This document shows positions 3,955-29,026 of a DNA stretch of 30,473 bases, piece after piece. A model generated the notes under the pieces. It made no database searches and was not told the DNA's origin. It was given only the letters and a program-made list of their open reading frames with translations. The stretch is from the IMG/VR virus record IMGVR_UViG_3300024344_000081, positions 1 through 30,473 of that record, one strand, 5' to 3'. Each line of letters begins with the position of its first letter. Within the stretch, counting starts at the first letter, position 1. The stretch comes from a virus. The position numbers and the translations under genes were made by a program.

Positions 3955-5295
3955 ATGGCGGCAGAAGCTCTTACGGAAGACAATATACCAAAAGGCGGAA
4001 TAGCGGGTTTTATAATGCCCGATGAAGATTTTGCTTTTTTGGAAGCAGAAAATGCGCGTAAGGAGCTTGGATCTTCTGGAATAGCTGAATTTAGCAGTAT
4101 TGCTCGACGCATGGCATCTTACGGTCGTTTTGGGGATGATACTGTTGCCCACGTTCAAACAGGTGAAATTGTTGTTCCGCGTAGATTAATAGAAAAAAGT
4201 CCTGAGTTAAAAGAATCAATTTTTCAACACCTTAGAGATCAAGGTGTTTTAGAACCTGAAAGATATGTTGTAGGCTCCTCAGACAACTCCATTAACCCTG
4301 AAACAGGGTTGATGGAGTTTGGTTTTTTCAGCGATATTTTTAATGGTGTTAAGAAAACCCTTAAAAAAATATCTGGGTTTGTGCTTCCTGCGGTAGGTTC
4401 TATGATTTTTGGCCCAGTTTGGGGCGCGGCGCTTGGTACTGGTGTCGCTACTTTATTACAAGGTGGAGATGTTAAGGATGCGTTAAAAGCGGGTTTGGGC
4501 GCTGGAGTAATTGGCGGAGCCGCTTCTTTTGCGGGTGGAGCTATGAAAGGTGGCGTTGGCGGAGGAATGAGTGCATTACGAAGTGCCGCTAATCCAGCAA
4601 ATGTACGACTTGGACTAAGTAATGTAGGTGATTTAGTTCAAGGCAAAGGAAGCTTTTCAGACACCTTTGGTAATATAACTGGTCAATACAGTGATATGGG
4701 GGGTCTTGAATCTCAAGGCGGCGAAACTGGTGGTTTTTTTAGTAAAGTAAAAAACGCTATTATTCCAAAAGATGATGTTACTTTAGAAGAAGTTTTAAAA
4801 ATAAAATTTCCAAATACTGAATTATCAGAAATTACCGCTCCTCAACTTAAAATTGCGGAGTCTATTGTCGAGTCGAGTAGGCCAAGTCTTTTCAAAAAAT
4901 ACGGACCTTTAGCAGGAGCGGGATTAGCTGCCACATATTTAGCAGGCGGTTTTGATGTTAAAGAAGAAGACGATATTGATCAGGAAACGGGGCAAGATTT
5001 AATAGACGCAAACAGAGAAAAATACATTGTACAAGGGTTAAATCCCTACCGTGTACCAATTTATGCCGCTAAAGGTGGCGCAATGGGTGATGTTTTTCCT
5101 AGACGAACAGGTGGAATAATGCCAAACGAGGGTATTCCTAATAAAGACAGCGTAAAGGCTTTAGTTATGCCCGGAGAATTTATTTTAACAACAGACGCAG
5201 TTAAAGGCGCAGGGGGCGGTGATTTAAACAGAGGTATTAATAACTTGTACGGCGTTATGCGTAATCTTGAAAGTATCGGAAGGAGCGCTTCGTAA
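3955..5295 (+). CDS. Putative internal virion (ejection) protein
   Basis: This 446-aa protein has an acidic, helical N-terminal part with GDDTVAHVQTGEIVVP (residues about 60-75). A long Gly/Ala-rich hydrophobic stretch follows at about residues 138-190 (FVLPAVGSMIFGPVWGAALG and following), which could insert in a membrane. The C-terminus carries DSVKALVMPGEFILTTDAVKG then GINNLYGVMRNLE, a motif I recall from internal proteins of marine podophages. The ATG is preceded by CGGAGAATAAT. Membrane-active segments are expected of proteins ejected with the genome to form the channel across the cell envelope. The gene heads a run of coupled genes (it overlaps the next by 1 nt). Role inferred from position and composition. 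Confidence 0.6.
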   Translation: MAAEALTEDNIPKGGIAGFIMPDEDFAFLEAENARKELGSSGIAEFSSIARRMASYGRFGDDTVAHVQTGEIVVPRRLIEKSPELKESIFQHLRDQGVLEPERYVVGSSDNSINPETGLMEFGFFSDIFNGVKKTLKKISGFVLPAVGSMIFGPVWGAALGTGVATLLQGGDVKDALKAGLGAGVIGGAASFAGGAMKGGVGGGMSALRSAANPANVRLGLSNVGDLVQGKGSFSDTFGNITGQYSDMGGLESQGGETGGFFSKVKNAIIPKDDVTLEEVLKIKFPNTELSEITAPQLKIAESIVESSRPSLFKKYGPLAGAGLAATYLAGGFDVKEEDDIDQETGQDLIDANREKYIVQGLNPYRVPIYAAKGGAMGDVFPRRTGGIMPNEGIPNKDSVKALVMPGEFILTTDAVKGAGGGDLNRGINNLYGVMRNLESIGRSAS

Positions 5296-21606: not shown

Positions 21607-21965
21607 AACGAGAAGAAATACTACAAAAAGCGGAAAAACTTATTAACGGACCACGGGCCAAGGACTACGGCGATGCTTACGAAAACCATGCAAGAATTGC
21701 TGACGGGTGGAATGTCATTGTAAACGGAGCTATGTTAAGTCATGGTTATTTAACGCCTGCCCACGTTATTTTAATGATGGATTGGCTTAAAACAAGTCGT
21801 CTTGTAGAAACAATAGACCACGAGGATTCTTGGATCGACAAAGCAGGATATACGGCACTGGGGGCAGAGTTTGTTAGTCGAGACGCTCGTCCTGTAAAAA
21901 AAATTATTGAGGAAATAAAAAAAGATGGCAAGCTTACAAATGGCGCTCTTCGTTCCAAAAAGTGA
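21603..21965 (+). CDS. Small phage protein, DUF6378-like
   Basis: This 120-aa protein begins MKREEILQKAEKLINGPRAK and has DYGDAYENHARIADGWNVIV followed by LTPAHVILMMDWLKTSRLVE and HEDSWIDKAGYTALG. The 'R.KDYGD...N..RIA..W' then 'D..IDK.GY' pattern is, as I recall, that of the DUF6378 family, helical proteins sometimes compared with MazG-type nucleotide hydrolases. No proof of enzyme activity is visible. Its place between helicase and polymerase suits a nucleotide or replication role. It shares ATGA with the helicase stop and overlaps the polymerase gene by 41 nt. Confidence 0.65.
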   Translation: MKREEILQKAEKLINGPRAKDYGDAYENHARIADGWNVIVNGAMLSHGYLTPAHVILMMDWLKTSRLVETIDHEDSWIDKAGYTALGAEFVSRDARPVKKIIEEIKKDGKLTNGALRSKK

Positions 21966-23838
21966 ATGGGTTCCACCCGCAGAACTACCCGATATCTTTA
22001 ATGCTAAGAAAATAGCCATCGATGTAGAAACAAAAGATCCAAACCTTAAAACTAACGGTCCGGGATGGGCAACGGGTGACGGGGAAGTGATTGGATATGC
22101 TGTAGCAACCGAAGACTGGTCTGGTTACCTACCTATCAGGCATGTCGGTGGCGGAAACTTAGACGAGCGGATCGTCAATAAGTGGCTTAAAAAGGTGTTT
22201 GAATGCCCCGCAGATAAAATCATGCACAACGCTCAGTACGATGCAGGGTGGATTAAACGTATGGGCTTTACTCTTAACGGGCGCATTGTTGATACGATGG
22301 TTGTTGCATCGCTCTTGGACGAAAACAGATTTAGTTACAGTCTAAATGCCTTGGCCTACGACCTACTCAATAAAACTAAATCAGAAAAAGGTTTAAAAGA
22401 AGCCGCAATATCGTTTGGTGTTGACCCAAAATCAGAGATGTACAAGCTTCCAAGCCAGTTTGTGGGCCCCTATGCTCAAGCGGATGCCGAACTGACTTTG
22501 GAACTATGGAATTATTTTTCGATGCAAATCGGAATACAGGATTTGTGGTCGGTTGTTAATTTGGAATTGGATTTACTGCCCTGTTTGGTGGATATGACAT
22601 GGCGCGGAGTGCGTGTTGACCAAGACAAAGTAGAAATTACTAGAGATAGTCTGTTAAAAAGAGAACAACAATTGCATTTGGACATTAAAAAAATGGTCGG
22701 AAGTGAGGTTGAGATCTGGGCGGCCCAATCGTTGCAAAAAGCTTTTGATAAACTAGACATATCATACCCTCGTACAGAGAAGGGAGCGCCTAGTTTTACA
22801 AAAAGTTTCCTCACAGACAACAAACACCCTCTCGCGCAAGCTATTGTACAAGCAAGAAGTCTCAATAAAACCTCTGGTACGTTTATCAATACTATTATGA
22901 AGCATTGTAGATCAGATGGTCGTATACATTCTCATATAAATCAGATCAGAAGTGACGACGGGGGTACTATTTCTGGGAGGATTTCAATGAATAATCCGAA
23001 TCTACAGCAAATTCCTGCGCGTGACCCCGAAATGGGGCCTTTAATACGTTCGCTCTTTTTACCTGAAGAAGGGGAGAAGTGGGCTTCAATAGATTTCTCG
23101 CAACAAGAACCGCGGATCTTGGTTCATTACGCTTACGTTTACGGAAAGAGTAGAGCAATTCCGTTGGAAGGAGTACAAGAGTTTGTGGATAACTACCGTA
23201 ACGACCCAAGCACAGATTTCCACACGCTAGTGGCTGAGATGGCGAATATCCCTCGAAAACAAGCCAAGACAATAAATCTGGGAATTATGTACGGTATGGG
23301 TGTGAACAAATTGTCTGATCAGATGGATATAGATTTAGACGAAGCTCGTGCGTTAATAAAAAAATACCACAACCGCGTTCCATTTGTAAAAGGACTGATG
23401 AACGGCGTTATAAATAGATTGAATGACAAAGCATCTTCAGGCTCAATCCGATCTTTAATGGGCCGAAAGTGTAGGTTTGACACATGGGAACCAACCTCTT
23501 TTGCGATGCACAAAGCTTTACCCTACAAAGAAGCTGTAAAAGAACATGGTGAAACGACAGCTTTAAGACGCGCCTACACATACAAAGCTCTCAATCGCCT
23601 TATTCAAGCCTCCGCCGCCGACATGACAAAGAAAGCAATGGTGGATATATACAAATCGGGCCGAACACCACTGATCCAGATCCACGACGAGATGGCAATG
23701 TCGATAAAAGATGAGGCTGAGGCGAGAGAAGTACGCGATATTATGGTAAACGCACTACCCTTAGAAATACCCAACAAATGTGACATCGACTACGGTTTAA
23801 GTTGGGGCGAAGCAGAAGAACTGAAGGAGGATACATGA
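21925..23838 (+). CDS. polA: Family A DNA polymerase with 3'-5' exonuclease
   Basis: This 637-aa replicative polymerase lacks the 5' nuclease domain. Exonuclease motifs are Asp33-x-Glu35 (IDVET), HNAQYDAGWI (residues 101-110) and YAQADAELT (183-191). Polymerase motif A is ASIDFSQQEPRI (Asp390, Glu395). Motif B is RKQAKTINLGIMYG (444-457), with Arg444 and Lys448 conserved. Motif C is IHDEM (His587, Asp588, Glu589). At the position equal to E. coli Pol I Phe762 this enzyme has Leu452 (codon 23278-23280). That variant is used in viral ecology to separate polymerase types and is reported to slow synthesis and raise fidelity. The start at 21925 has GAGG about 11 nt upstream; Met6 is an alternative. 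Its stop overlaps the next ATG. Confidence 0.93.
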   Translation: MASLQMALFVPKSEWVPPAELPDIFNAKKIAIDVETKDPNLKTNGPGWATGDGEVIGYAVATEDWSGYLPIRHVGGGNLDERIVNKWLKKVFECPADKIMHNAQYDAGWIKRMGFTLNGRIVDTMVVASLLDENRFSYSLNALAYDLLNKTKSEKGLKEAAISFGVDPKSEMYKLPSQFVGPYAQADAELTLELWNYFSMQIGIQDLWSVVNLELDLLPCLVDMTWRGVRVDQDKVEITRDSLLKREQQLHLDIKKMVGSEVEIWAAQSLQKAFDKLDISYPRTEKGAPSFTKSFLTDNKHPLAQAIVQARSLNKTSGTFINTIMKHCRSDGRIHSHINQIRSDDGGTISGRISMNNPNLQQIPARDPEMGPLIRSLFLPEEGEKWASIDFSQQEPRILVHYAYVYGKSRAIPLEGVQEFVDNYRNDPSTDFHTLVAEMANIPRKQAKTINLGIMYGMGVNKLSDQMDIDLDEARALIKKYHNRVPFVKGLMNGVINRLNDKASSGSIRSLMGRKCRFDTWEPTSFAMHKALPYKEAVKEHGETTALRRAYTYKALNRLIQASAADMTKKAMVDIYKSGRTPLIQIHDEMAMSIKDEAEAREVRDIMVNALPLEIPNKCDIDYGLSWGEAEELKEDT

Positions 23839-24009: not shown

Positions 24010-24038
24010 TTGTACATTACTATATAATCTTATATACT
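24010..24038 (+). promoter_or_regulatory. Candidate promoter of the RHH/zinc-ribbon genes
   Basis: TTGTAC (24010-24015) lies 17 nt before TATACT (24033-24038). A TATAAT (24023-24028) sits between them. The start would be near 24045, and GGAG (24056-24059) precedes the RHH gene. The AT-rich half-symmetrical block 24021-24038 could be an operator for the RHH protein itself. Confidence 0.4.
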
Positions 24039-24065
24039 CTTACAAATTAGCAGATGGAGCGCACG

Positions 24066-24233
24066 ATGGATACGACAAAATGGAAAAGTATACTTGTTCC
24101 TGTGGACATTTACAAAGAAATAAAAGATTTGAGCCAAGCAGAAGGCCGAACTATTTCTGGTCAGCTTAGAATTATCCACGAAACTTTTAAAAAAGTAAAT
24201 CCACCCGTTCGCAACGTTTATGTCGAAGATTGA
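24066..24233 (+). CDS. Ribbon-helix-helix (Arc/CopG-like) DNA-binding protein
   Basis: This 55-aa gene has GGAG 6 nt before its ATG. The product reads MDTTKWKSILVPVDIYKEIK then DLSQAEGRTISGQLRIIHET. A short beta strand (KSILVPV), a helix (DIYKEIKDLSQAEG) and a second helix opening with Thr-Ile-Ser (RTISGQLRIIHETFKK) are the ribbon-helix-helix pattern of small dimeric repressors. It likely binds an operator near its own promoter and may govern the downstream zinc-ribbon, small RNA and Mom-like genes. Its end overlaps the next start by 14 nt. Confidence 0.72.
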   Translation: MDTTKWKSILVPVDIYKEIKDLSQAEGRTISGQLRIIHETFKKVNPPVRNVYVED

Positions 24234-24396
24234 TTTTGATCCTGATGACGTTATGTGTAAAGCACTAAACGATGACCAATGCCCACGGTGTTACCATTTT
24301 TTAAAAAGAGTTGATACAAAAGACAGCTATCAACAAAAAAGAGTGTGTTTAATCTGTAATTTTGAAATTTTGGACACTTTATCGGTTTTACCATAA
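24220..24396 (+). CDS. Small zinc-ribbon protein (Com-like in position and type)
   Basis: This 58-aa gene overlaps the RHH gene by 14 nt. The product has two Cys pairs, CPRC (21-24) and CLIC (43-46), 18 residues apart, flanked by basic residues (HFLKRVDTK, QQKRV): a zinc ribbon. In phage Mu a zinc-binding protein of about the same size, Com, lies just before mom and lifts a translational block on mom mRNA. Here a Mom-like gene lies 181 nt downstream. Sequence relation to Com beyond the Cys pairs is not evident, so Com-like is a hypothesis from layout. Alternatives are a transcription elongation or promoter factor. No strong ribosome site precedes the ATG, so translation may be coupled to the RHH gene. 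Confidence 0.65.
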   Translation: MSKIDFDPDDVMCKALNDDQCPRCYHFLKRVDTKDSYQQKRVCLICNFEILDTLSVLP

Positions 24397-24402
24397 AAGG
24401 GG

Positions 24403-24429
24403 TTGCAATCCCATAAAATCTGATATACT
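24403..24429 (+). promoter_or_regulatory. Extended -10 promoter for a small RNA
   Basis: TGATATACT (24421-24429) is a complete extended -10 (TGn plus TATACT, 5/6), with TTGCAA (24403-24408) 15 nt before the hexamer. Transcription should start at one of the G residues 24435-24437, directly in front of three hairpins. It begins 7 nt after the zinc-ribbon stop. Confidence 0.6.
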
Positions 24430-24434
24430 GTAAT

Positions 24435-24538
24435 GGGTAGCGTACTGACGACGCTTAACTTTTTTGTCAAAGTTATACTGATAATATCGACTCCTAAATT
24501 CAAACCCTCATCTTAGTAAAATAAGGTGGGGGTTTTTT
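24435..24538 (+). ncRNA. Putative free-standing small RNA, about 100 nt, three hairpins
   Basis: Between promoter and terminator there is no gene-like ORF with a ribosome site. Hairpin 1 pairs AGCGT (24439-24443) with ACGCT (24451-24455). Hairpin 2 follows at once, pairing TAACTTT (24456-24462) with AAAGTTA (24469-24475). A single-stranded stretch of 26 nt leads to hairpin 3, the terminator. Own promoter, stacked stems and own terminator are what a small regulatory RNA gene looks like. It may instead be an attenuated leader of the Mom-like gene 40 nt downstream. The target is unknown. Confidence 0.55.
24502..24538 (+). terminator. Rho-independent terminator upstream of the Mom-like gene
   Basis: Arms 24505-24515 and 24522-24532 pair over 11 bp with two G-T wobbles. 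They can be lengthened by AAA (24502-24504) with the following T residues. The loop is 6 nt and the stem is followed by T6 (24533-24538). It should end the small RNA and read-through from the zinc-ribbon gene. Confidence 0.8.
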
Positions 24539-24542
24539 ACTG

Positions 24543-24577
24543 TTGACACAGTTGAAAAAAACCTTTACTGTTATAGT
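24543..24577 (+). promoter_or_regulatory. Candidate promoter abutting the Mom-like start (possibly leaderless)
   Basis: A perfect TTGACA begins exactly 35 nt before the A of the ATG at 24578. A -10 at TTTACT (24564-24569) would start the RNA at or next to that ATG, giving a leaderless mRNA. A second reading uses the extended -10 TGTTATAGT (24569-24577), which would start inside the gene and favour a GTG at 24626. No Shine-Dalgarno sequence precedes 24578. Confidence 0.45.
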
Positions 24578-25222
24578 ATGCAAAAATCAAAAGAATACCG
24601 CCAAATAAAAAAGAACGATCTTTCTGTGCGTCCAATTACACGCCGATCTGCATTGCCATTTATCATTGACAGGCATTATATGCACAGAGTTCCACCTATT
24701 AGTGAAGCTTTTGGTTTATTCAATAGTGATAAGATGATTGGCATAGTGACTTATGGAATTAGCGCATCCACTACTTTAAGACGCGGGGTTTGTGGGGATG
24801 AGCAGGCTTCTAACGTCTATGAGTTGACACGACTTTGGACTGAAGATGATGCCCCGCATAATGCAGAAAGTTTTTTAATAGCCGCATCAATTAAAATGCT
24901 CGACAAAGAAATTATTGTGACCTTTGCAGAGATAGATGCGGGGCATGTTGGAACAATTTACCAAGCGGCAAATTTCTTTTACTGTGGGCTGTCAGCTAAG
25001 TTTAAAGATCCTAAAGTTAAAGGATTAGAACACCAACATCATACAACTTACGCCCGTGGCATGAATATGGCGCAAATCCGCGAAAAGTATGGCGCAGAGA
25101 ATGTTTACTATGTCGATAGACCTCGCAAGCACCGATATGTCTTTTTTAACGCAAAGAAAAAAAGACGAAAAGATTTAATCAAGGCTTTAAAGTATCAAGT
25201 TTTGCCTTATCCAAAACAATGA
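24578..25222 (+). CDS. Mom-like DNA hypermodification protein (GNAT-type fold)
   Basis: This 214-aa protein resembles the phage Mu Mom family, which puts a methylcarbamoyl group on adenines so that restriction enzymes no longer cut the phage DNA. The matching stretches are YELTRLW (81-87), Asn95-AESFLIAASIKML (96-108) and TFAEIDAGHVGTIYQAANFF (115-134) followed by YCG. Mu Mom has the same order of 'LxRLxV..N.ASFLLxxSMxLI' and 'VTYADxxxGHTGxIYxATNWxYVG'. The C-terminus (VDRPRKHRYVFFNAKKKRRK) is basic. Residues before about 15 carry no motif, so a start at the GTG 24626 is possible. It has its own promoter pattern and lies behind a terminator, so it is set apart from the replication operon. The modified base made here cannot be read from sequence. 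Confidence 0.72.
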   Translation: MQKSKEYRQIKKNDLSVRPITRRSALPFIIDRHYMHRVPPISEAFGLFNSDKMIGIVTYGISASTTLRRGVCGDEQASNVYELTRLWTEDDAPHNAESFLIAASIKMLDKEIIVTFAEIDAGHVGTIYQAANFFYCGLSAKFKDPKVKGLEHQHHTTYARGMNMAQIREKYGAENVYYVDRPRKHRYVFFNAKKKRRKDLIKALKYQVLPYPKQ

Positions 25223-28403: not shown

Positions 28404-28432
28404 TTTACTAAGTTGACTTTATAATATATATT
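28404..28432 (+). promoter_or_regulatory. Candidate promoter of the papain-like gene
   Basis: TTTACT (28404-28409, 4/6) and TATATT (28427-28432, 5/6) are spaced by 17 nt, directly after the terminator. The RNA would start near 28439 and have a leader of about 147 nt. Confidence 0.45.
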
Positions 28433-28438
28433 AGTTTT

Positions 28439-28585
28439 AGGGCAAACGATCAGCCCGACGCTCTTTGACATCGTTAGTAGGCTTTCTGATAGGAAGTTGT
28501 TCGTCAGGCAACATCCTTTAAGGCGACGAGACAATTCTGTCTTGAAACCGATGACCAGACTTCTTTTAATTTAGGAGGACATTTT
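28439..28585 (+). promoter_or_regulatory. Long, structured 5' leader
   Basis: The leader is unusually long for this genome. Stems seen by eye are AACGAT (28445-28450) with ATCGTT (28470-28475), CTTTC (28482-28486) with GGAAG (28492-28496), GTTG (28496-28499) with CAAC (28509-28512), and AGACA (28529-28533) with TGTCT (28538-28542). A full AGGAGG (28573-28578) stands before the ATG. It may be a regulatory leader or hold a processed RNA; no known riboswitch is recognised. Confidence 0.4.
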
Positions 28586-29026
28586 ATGTCTAAATTTGTT
28601 TATAATGACGGCGGTCGAGAGGCCGCAGGCTACAAAGGCACAGCAGGCGACTGCGTTTGTCGTGCTGTAGCTATTGCCGCAGAACTTCCTTACCAAGAGG
28701 TTTATGACCGGCTGGCAGAAGGAAACGCCGCGCAACGTAAATCGAAGCGCAACAAAGGCAAGCAATCACGATCCGCTCGCAACGGTATTTATACTACGCG
28801 TAAATGGTTCAAAGATTACATGCTTGAGCTTGGGTTTGTCTGGACACCAACAATGACTATCGGGTCAGGGTGTAAAGTTCACCTTAGAGCCGACGAACTA
28901 CCGTCTGGTCGTTTGGTTTGCAATGTGTCTCGTCATCAAGTCGCAATAATCGACGGTGTTATCAACGACACTTACGATTGTAGTCGAGAAGGCACGCGGT
29001 GCGTGTACGGCTATTGGCGACGATAA
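28586..29026 (+). CDS. Papain-like cysteine peptidase-fold phage protein
   Basis: This 146-aa protein starts MSKFVYNDGGREAAGYKGTA and has GDCVCRAVAIAAELPYQEVY, a Lys/Arg-rich insert (RKSKRNKGKQSRSARNG, 51-67), and LVCNVSRHQVAIIDGVINDT. Cys23 in GDCVCRA, His117 in SRHQVAIIDG and Asp123 or Asp128 are placed like a papain-type triad. Such small proteins are common in phages, and their targets are not known. The basic insert could bind nucleic acid. It forms its own transcription unit: terminator and promoter before, UUCG terminator after. That suggests timing separate from its neighbours. Confidence 0.65.
   Translation: MSKFVYNDGGREAAGYKGTAGDCVCRAVAIAAELPYQEVYDRLAEGNAAQRKSKRNKGKQSRSARNGIYTTRKWFKDYMLELGFVWTPTMTIGSGCKVHLRADELPSGRLVCNVSRHQVAIIDGVINDTYDCSREGTRCVYGYWRR

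Follow-up and report, generated by a model that had tools for sequence, protein, structure and literature searches.

A virus record of 30,473 bases (IMG/VR IMGVR_UViG_3300024344_000081), called the window in the following, carries between a small Zn-ribbon-like gene and a mom-like DNA-modification gene a stretch at 24403–24538 that an earlier note had read as a phage small RNA gene. This raises the question whether the stretch encodes a free RNA or the leader of the next mRNA, and on which mRNAs such an RNA would act. Comparison of related phage genomes suggests that 24403–24538 is probably the gene of a free, untranslated, trans-acting phage small RNA (sRNA) that represses translation of phage mRNA by pairing with Shine-Dalgarno (SD) sequences.

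Architecture of the unit and its neighbourhood

The window polymerase has phage DSL-LC04 and Pelagibacter phages as its closest cultivated relatives (48–53% identity). The window further encodes a UvrD-like helicase and has a mom-like gene, and a tRNA search found none. In the 3′ direction of the polymerase gene follow a 56-aa ORF, a 59-aa ribbon-helix-helix (RHH) gene, a 58-aa Zn-ribbon-like gene, the sRNA unit and the mom-like gene. The features of this region are:

21925–23838: family-A DNA polymerase gene
24054–24233, plus strand: gene of the 59-aa RHH protein (RHH_5, E=2.7e-4, under the Pfam cut-off)
24220–24396, plus strand: gene of the 58-aa Zn-ribbon-like protein (CxxC...CxxC), directly 5′ of the sRNA unit
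24403–24429, plus strand: sRNA promoter with -35 TTGCAA (24403–24408) and extended -10 TGATATACT (24421–24429), from the sequence and its relatives
24436–24538, plus strand: predicted small RNA of about 103 nt, its start placed from the -10 spacing and its end from the terminator
24439–24455, plus strand: predicted hairpin 1, AGCGU-ACUGACG-ACGCU, loop ACUGACG
24456–24475, plus strand: predicted hairpin 2, UAACUUU-UUUGUC-AAAGUUA, loop UUUGUC
24491–24500, plus strand: seed CUCCUAAAUU, an unpaired linker, complement of AAUUUAGGAG
24502–24538, plus strand: intrinsic terminator with a 14-pair stem (24502–24535) and T6 (24533–24538)
24543–24571, plus strand: promoter of the mom-like gene, TTGACA-17-TACTGT, a layout shared by two related contigs (L104, L105)
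24578–25222: mom-like DNA-modification gene (Pfam Mom 1.6e-44; phrog_1384)

The 15-nt spacer of the sRNA promoter contains CCCATA, and its extended -10 element reads TG-A-TATACT. The promoter, the back-to-back stems and the T6 terminator that the earlier note had listed are all present at these positions. Its statement that the unit holds no gene-like ORF stands as well: a 27-codon frame from 24433 begins upstream of the predicted transcript start and lacks conservation in relatives, and a peptide encoded in the unit was rejected on this ground. With a promoter and a terminator of its own and no ORF, the stretch has the predicted make-up of an independent transcription unit. The whole unit folds with z = -4.3 compared to shuffled sequence because of its terminator; hairpins 1 and 2 alone do not exceed shuffled sequence in stability (z = -0.7). 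A promoter scan found 25 promoters with 25.2 expected, i.e., no excess, using a spacer range of 16–18 nt that is blind to the 15-nt spacer of the sRNA promoter. As single-sequence statistics are weak except for the terminator, the case for the unit depends on comparison, and the element stands above chance because it is conserved in relatives.

The same gap in related phages

Four more contigs with the homologous gap (L102, L103, L104, L105), which together with the window form type A, were found by a search with the Zn-ribbon protein. The 27-nt promoter block is nearly identical in all four, TTAACTTTTTTGTCAAA in hairpin 2 is unchanged, ACTCCTAA is also kept and the linker core ACUCCUAA is invariant in type A. 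The stem of the terminator is kept across relatives and subgroups while its sequence differs. In hairpin 1 the loop core CUGACG is invariant in the five sequences, and a U-A pair is replaced by G-C on both sides of the stem in two of the five; this compensatory change was matched by 52 of 500 shuffles and taken alone is only suggestive. The earlier note had named homologous gaps keeping neither stems nor promoter as evidence against an RNA gene; in the comparison both are kept. A mere promoter-terminator cassette that separates two operons and yields a short functionless transcript would agree with the chance-level stability of hairpins 1 and 2. We regard this reading as highly improbable in view of the invariant loop and linker sequences, the compensatory change in hairpin 1 and the co-variation of seeds and SDs described below.

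The comparison also bears on the possibility that the unit is a cis-acting leader or attenuator, i.e., that the RNA forms the beginning of the downstream mRNA, with the terminator governing read-through into the next gene. In the window, L104 and L105 a separate promoter for the downstream gene lies between terminator and ATG, and in types A and C (the other types are introduced below) the next gene has its own promoter beyond a strong terminator. The downstream genes differ among the type-A relatives while the unit stays, with mom present in the window only, L105 carries two complete units in tandem, and the seeds match SDs of distant genes. Several B-type phages without an evident second promoter between terminator and next ORF, and some weak U-tracts, fit the leader reading, which is nevertheless quite unlikely. 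The comparison thus supports the proposal of a free RNA of about 100 nt instead of a mere leader, by the conserved unit, the separate downstream promoter, the exchanged downstream genes and the L105 tandem.

As the unit is conserved while the downstream genes are swapped, it appears to be an independent RNA gene separate from DNA modification. The link to DNA modification drawn in the earlier note was not borne out: mom is absent next to the unit in the relatives, and the RNA shows no notable match to the start region of mom. The unit is assigned to the polymerase/RHH/Zn-ribbon block and not to the mom gene. The ORF downstream of the unit in L103, L104 and L105 is not mom and has only the first 20 nt, ATGCAAAAATCAAAAGAATA, in common with the window mom gene, so that mom in the window looks like a recent replacement. 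The position of the mom-like gene's promoter puts the transcript start near the ATG at 24578, which suggests a leaderless mRNA. The unit was also considered as a mom leader, which was rejected as the gaps upstream of mom genes in other phages are unrelated in each, and mom as a target of the seed gave no match of note.

Like in the Com-mom system of phage Mu, a small Zn-finger-type ORF lies upstream of the mom gene in the window. Unlike in Com-mom, L103, L104 and L105 have the Zn-ribbon gene but no mom at this place, i.e., the gene is not tied to mom as com would be, and in the window an sRNA gene with terminator separates the two genes. The four cysteines of the Zn-ribbon-like protein are invariant in an alignment of five relatives; Pfam and PHROGs searches gave no match, and no match to the Com family was found. 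Its gene, placed between the RHH gene and the sRNA, is present in type A and many B phages, and the protein is possibly an RNA-binding partner.

Several smaller observations concern this region. An extra unit in L105 (near 4174–4270, the first of its pair) and L112 has the same promoter, a different RNA, UUCUCCUUUUU, and a GACGGTG-type terminator; it is a possible paralogous small RNA. The promoter of the RHH gene (window 24010–24050; L102–L105) contains a near-palindrome, CTATATAATCCTATATAG in L102. An ATC[CG]CATA box, common to the sRNA promoters and target promoters of the family, is a candidate RHH operator.

A family of units and its complementarity to Shine-Dalgarno sites

For a survey of the family about 80 polymerase loci and about 80 RHH loci were fetched. 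In many uncultivated marine phages, units composed of promoter, hairpin, exposed CUCC-containing seed and terminator follow the RHH gene, which is the constant neighbour of the unit in all types; in other phage groups with an RHH gene no recognisable unit was seen. B-type units consist of a hairpin, CUCCGUAG and a terminator with the loop UUGCCC; C-type units have a GUGCUCCGUAGGCAC hairpin with the seed in its loop, a strong terminator and a next gene with its own promoter; the F type (L166) exposes GUUCUCCAAACAAUU in a loop and the G type has a ACAUUCUCCAAUGU hairpin. By this architecture the window RNA would be the type-A member of a family that several groups of uncultivated marine phages encode behind the RHH regulator gene. 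In G-type units (L238, L256, L264, L268, L271 and others) the terminator loop has a conserved AUGUCCUGA, and the owner phages carry TTGGAGAATG start sites.

No unit, neither of the window nor of its relatives, matched Rfam at gathering scores. An identity with NsiR1 was rejected (score 23, cut-off 39), the match covering little beyond the terminator. DNA similarity searches against cultivated phages gave only chance matches for the window element (E about 0.6), no match for B- and C-type units and one short match, inside a coding gene, for the G-type region. The B-type terminator loop has four scattered matches in bacterial genomes. In open-licence papers no description of the sRNA family was found.

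Since CUCC alone fits any SD, the letters flanking it were tested. CTAC, the complement of GUAG, precedes GGAG at 21 of 202 non-redundant GGAG start sites in B/C phages and at 1 of 272 elsewhere. In a comparison over all types, from which antisense copies of the units were removed, CTACGGAG, the complement of the seed CUCCGUAG, occurs in 30 of 235 SD sites in B/C phages and 1 of 378 elsewhere (p=2e-12), the complement TTGGAGAAC in 3 of 5 in F phages and 3 of 608 elsewhere (p=5e-6), the complement TTGGAGAATG in 10 of 111 in G phages and none of 502 elsewhere (p=3e-8), and seed-matching SDs are not generally enriched in type A (2/47 vs 10/566, p=0.23). The Fisher p-values of this comparison are too small, as related phages share genes and are not independent samples. 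Even so, three different seed sequences each fit the SDs of their own genomes, and in types B, C, F and G the seeds match several phage genes. The comparison shows seed and SD varying in step from one related phage to another. A CTCCCGTAT RNA was sought in phages with TTATACGGGAG leaders and none was found. Conserved, predicted unpaired seeds are complementary to the translation starts of separate genes, strongly so for B/C, F and G, and for type A with a single gene matched over 10 nt.

The type-A match lies 4 kb from the unit in a gene with the following features:

28404–28432, plus strand: likely promoter of the target mRNA, TTTACT-17-TATATT, read from sequence only
28439–28585, plus strand: leader with boxA-like CGCTCTTTGACA (28459–28470), loop UCGUCAG (28501–28507) and SD AATTTAGGAG (28568–28577)
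28586–29026, plus strand: predicted target gene, 146 aa (phrog_3754, E=1.4e-11)

The seed CUCCUAAAUU is a 10-nt complement of the SD AAUUUAGGAG (28568–28577) of this gene; only one more 10-nt complement of its start region exists in the 30 kb, TCCTAAATTA, which is on the minus strand and lacks a terminator. The predicted pairing is of moderate strength (RNAduplex -13.1 kcal/mol), and some further genes of the window are predicted to pair more strongly with this linker, down to -15.8. The type-A case is one gene, and no other type-A contig extends to it. The same 146-aa gene has a matching SD in three seed types, over 10 nt in A, 9–12 nt in B and at 14 of 15 positions in F. In B-type homologs the SD (TCA)ACTACGGAGG is complementary over 9–12 nt to CUCCGUAGU(UGA), and in the F-type L166, 14 of 15 positions of the start region AATTGATTGGAGAAC are complementary to GUUCUCCAAACAAUU. 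Cross-pairings between types reach 4–7 nt, except for 9 nt between hairpin 2 of the window and the boxA-like element in two B leaders. Where a contig has no recognised unit, the homolog of the 146-aa gene has a different SD. The RNA gene and its predicted target gene thus co-vary. In the 146-aa protein Cys23, His117 and Asp128 are invariant in the alignment, suggestive of a cysteine-peptidase-like triad; a PDB search with its confident AlphaFold2 model gave no significant match.

Next to the seed, the loops offer additional complementarity. In B-type RNAs the terminator loop UUGCCC is seen in 24 of 26 folds, closed by varying stems. A hairpin with the complementary loop GGGCAA occurs in 25 of 47 YTAYGGAG leaders of B-type phages and in 8 of 160 others (p=7e-13), and the order of seed and loop contacts is antiparallel-compatible; no enrichment of this contact was seen in C-type and type-A phages. 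In the window, CUGACGA of hairpin 1 (24445–24451) is the complement of UCGUCAG, the predicted loop in the 28586 leader, and UGUCAAAG of hairpin 2 (24465–24472) is an 8-nt complement of the boxA-like CUUUGACA in that leader. When leaders were dinucleotide-shuffled, 0.05% came up to the three complementary runs of 10, 8 and 7 nt combined (p=0.0005), and the 28586 leader scores highest among the window gene leaders tested. The runs of 8 and 7 nt are no more than suggestive as contacts, and in type A the two loop contacts do not follow a simple antiparallel order. The boxA-like element at 28459–28470 has similar counterparts in B-type leaders such as that of L169 (near 3890), which suggests an antitermination site heading the operon of the 146-aa gene.

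These data can be set against the reading of a free sRNA aimed mainly at host mRNAs, host sRNAs or the ribosome, with the matches to phage SDs as a by-product of the anti-SD-like CUCC core. All types share CUCC, which would make contact with many SDs, and the target search covered phage genes only. Against this, the letters outside CUCC fit the SDs of the owner phage and not those of other phages, and B-type RNAs have their second contact in leaders of the same genes; we consider the host-directed reading unlikely. Alternatively, the RNA might activate, e.g., by opening the 28586 leader or by acting on the boxA-like antitermination site. Activation would fit the prediction that the SD of 28586 is held in a weak stem, and also the complementarity of the RNA to the boxA-like element. 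The longest pairing, however, includes the SD itself, and pairing there normally blocks initiation; an activating role is very unlikely.

Proposed mode of action and relation to known systems

In the repression that we favour, the RNA would be transcribed from its own promoter and end at its terminator, and its unpaired linker CUCCUAAAUU would pair with the SD AAUUUAGGAG of the 146-aa gene, with the hairpin loops probably adding contacts to the 28586 leader. The pairing would keep the 30S subunit off and translation would be repressed. One phage regulator may time both sRNA and targets, an idea that comes from the constant RHH neighbour and the shared ATC[CG]CATA box. The broader proposal is a widespread sRNA family behind an RHH repressor gene that silences genes of its own phage via their ribosome-binding sites, in B types with an additional UUGCCC/GGGCAA loop-loop contact, and in which seeds and SDs co-evolve so that each group would have a private code; we hold the chances for and against it to be even.

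The c4 antisense RNA of P1/P7 is a short, untranslated RNA that pairs with the ribosome-binding region of a phage mRNA, with its complementary stretches in loops, and controls the antirepressor (ant) mRNA (PMC12197685). The window RNA is likewise phage-encoded, short and untranslated, with predicted pairing at the ribosome-binding region via exposed stretches. Unlike c4, the window unit has its own promoter and terminator, at a distance of 4 kb from the predicted target gene, and types B, C, F and G match several genes. In the window and its relatives the c4 family gave no Rfam match at gathering scores and was absent among the weak matches. Nothing marks the 146-aa phrog_3754 protein as an antirepressor. 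The sar and OOP RNAs are encoded antisense to their target; the window RNA, unlike these, is encoded away from its target and would pair over short stretches. Both sar (P22) and OOP (lambda) are phage antisense RNAs that reduce how strongly a regulatory gene of the phage is expressed, sar by hindering initiation of ant translation (PMC12197685). By its predicted mode, the window RNA would resemble c4 and sar; by family model it is not a member.

PreS (lambda) and VpdS (VP882) are stand-alone phage sRNA genes acting in trans, both bind Hfq, and PreS acts on host dnaN (PMC12197685). The window unit is similarly a stand-alone sRNA gene predicted to act in trans; unlike those of PreS, its predicted targets are phage genes. 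A U-rich terminator tail alone is no evidence for Hfq dependence.

Most of the phage sRNAs in one review (PMC12197685) belong to temperate phages or prophages of cultivated bacteria. If the proposal is true, an sRNA family from uncultivated marine phages with a fixed genome place and predictable phage targets would be added, together with a natural record of seed/target co-evolution and a virus-made RNA switch over the virus's own protein production. Private Shine-Dalgarno codes would furthermore be a route to finding other phage sRNAs. Another gap type was seen in L021 (2733–2930) and L022 (2236–2860), with an RNA that contains UUUAUUGUCC, complementary to GGACAAUAAA just before a nearby gene start.
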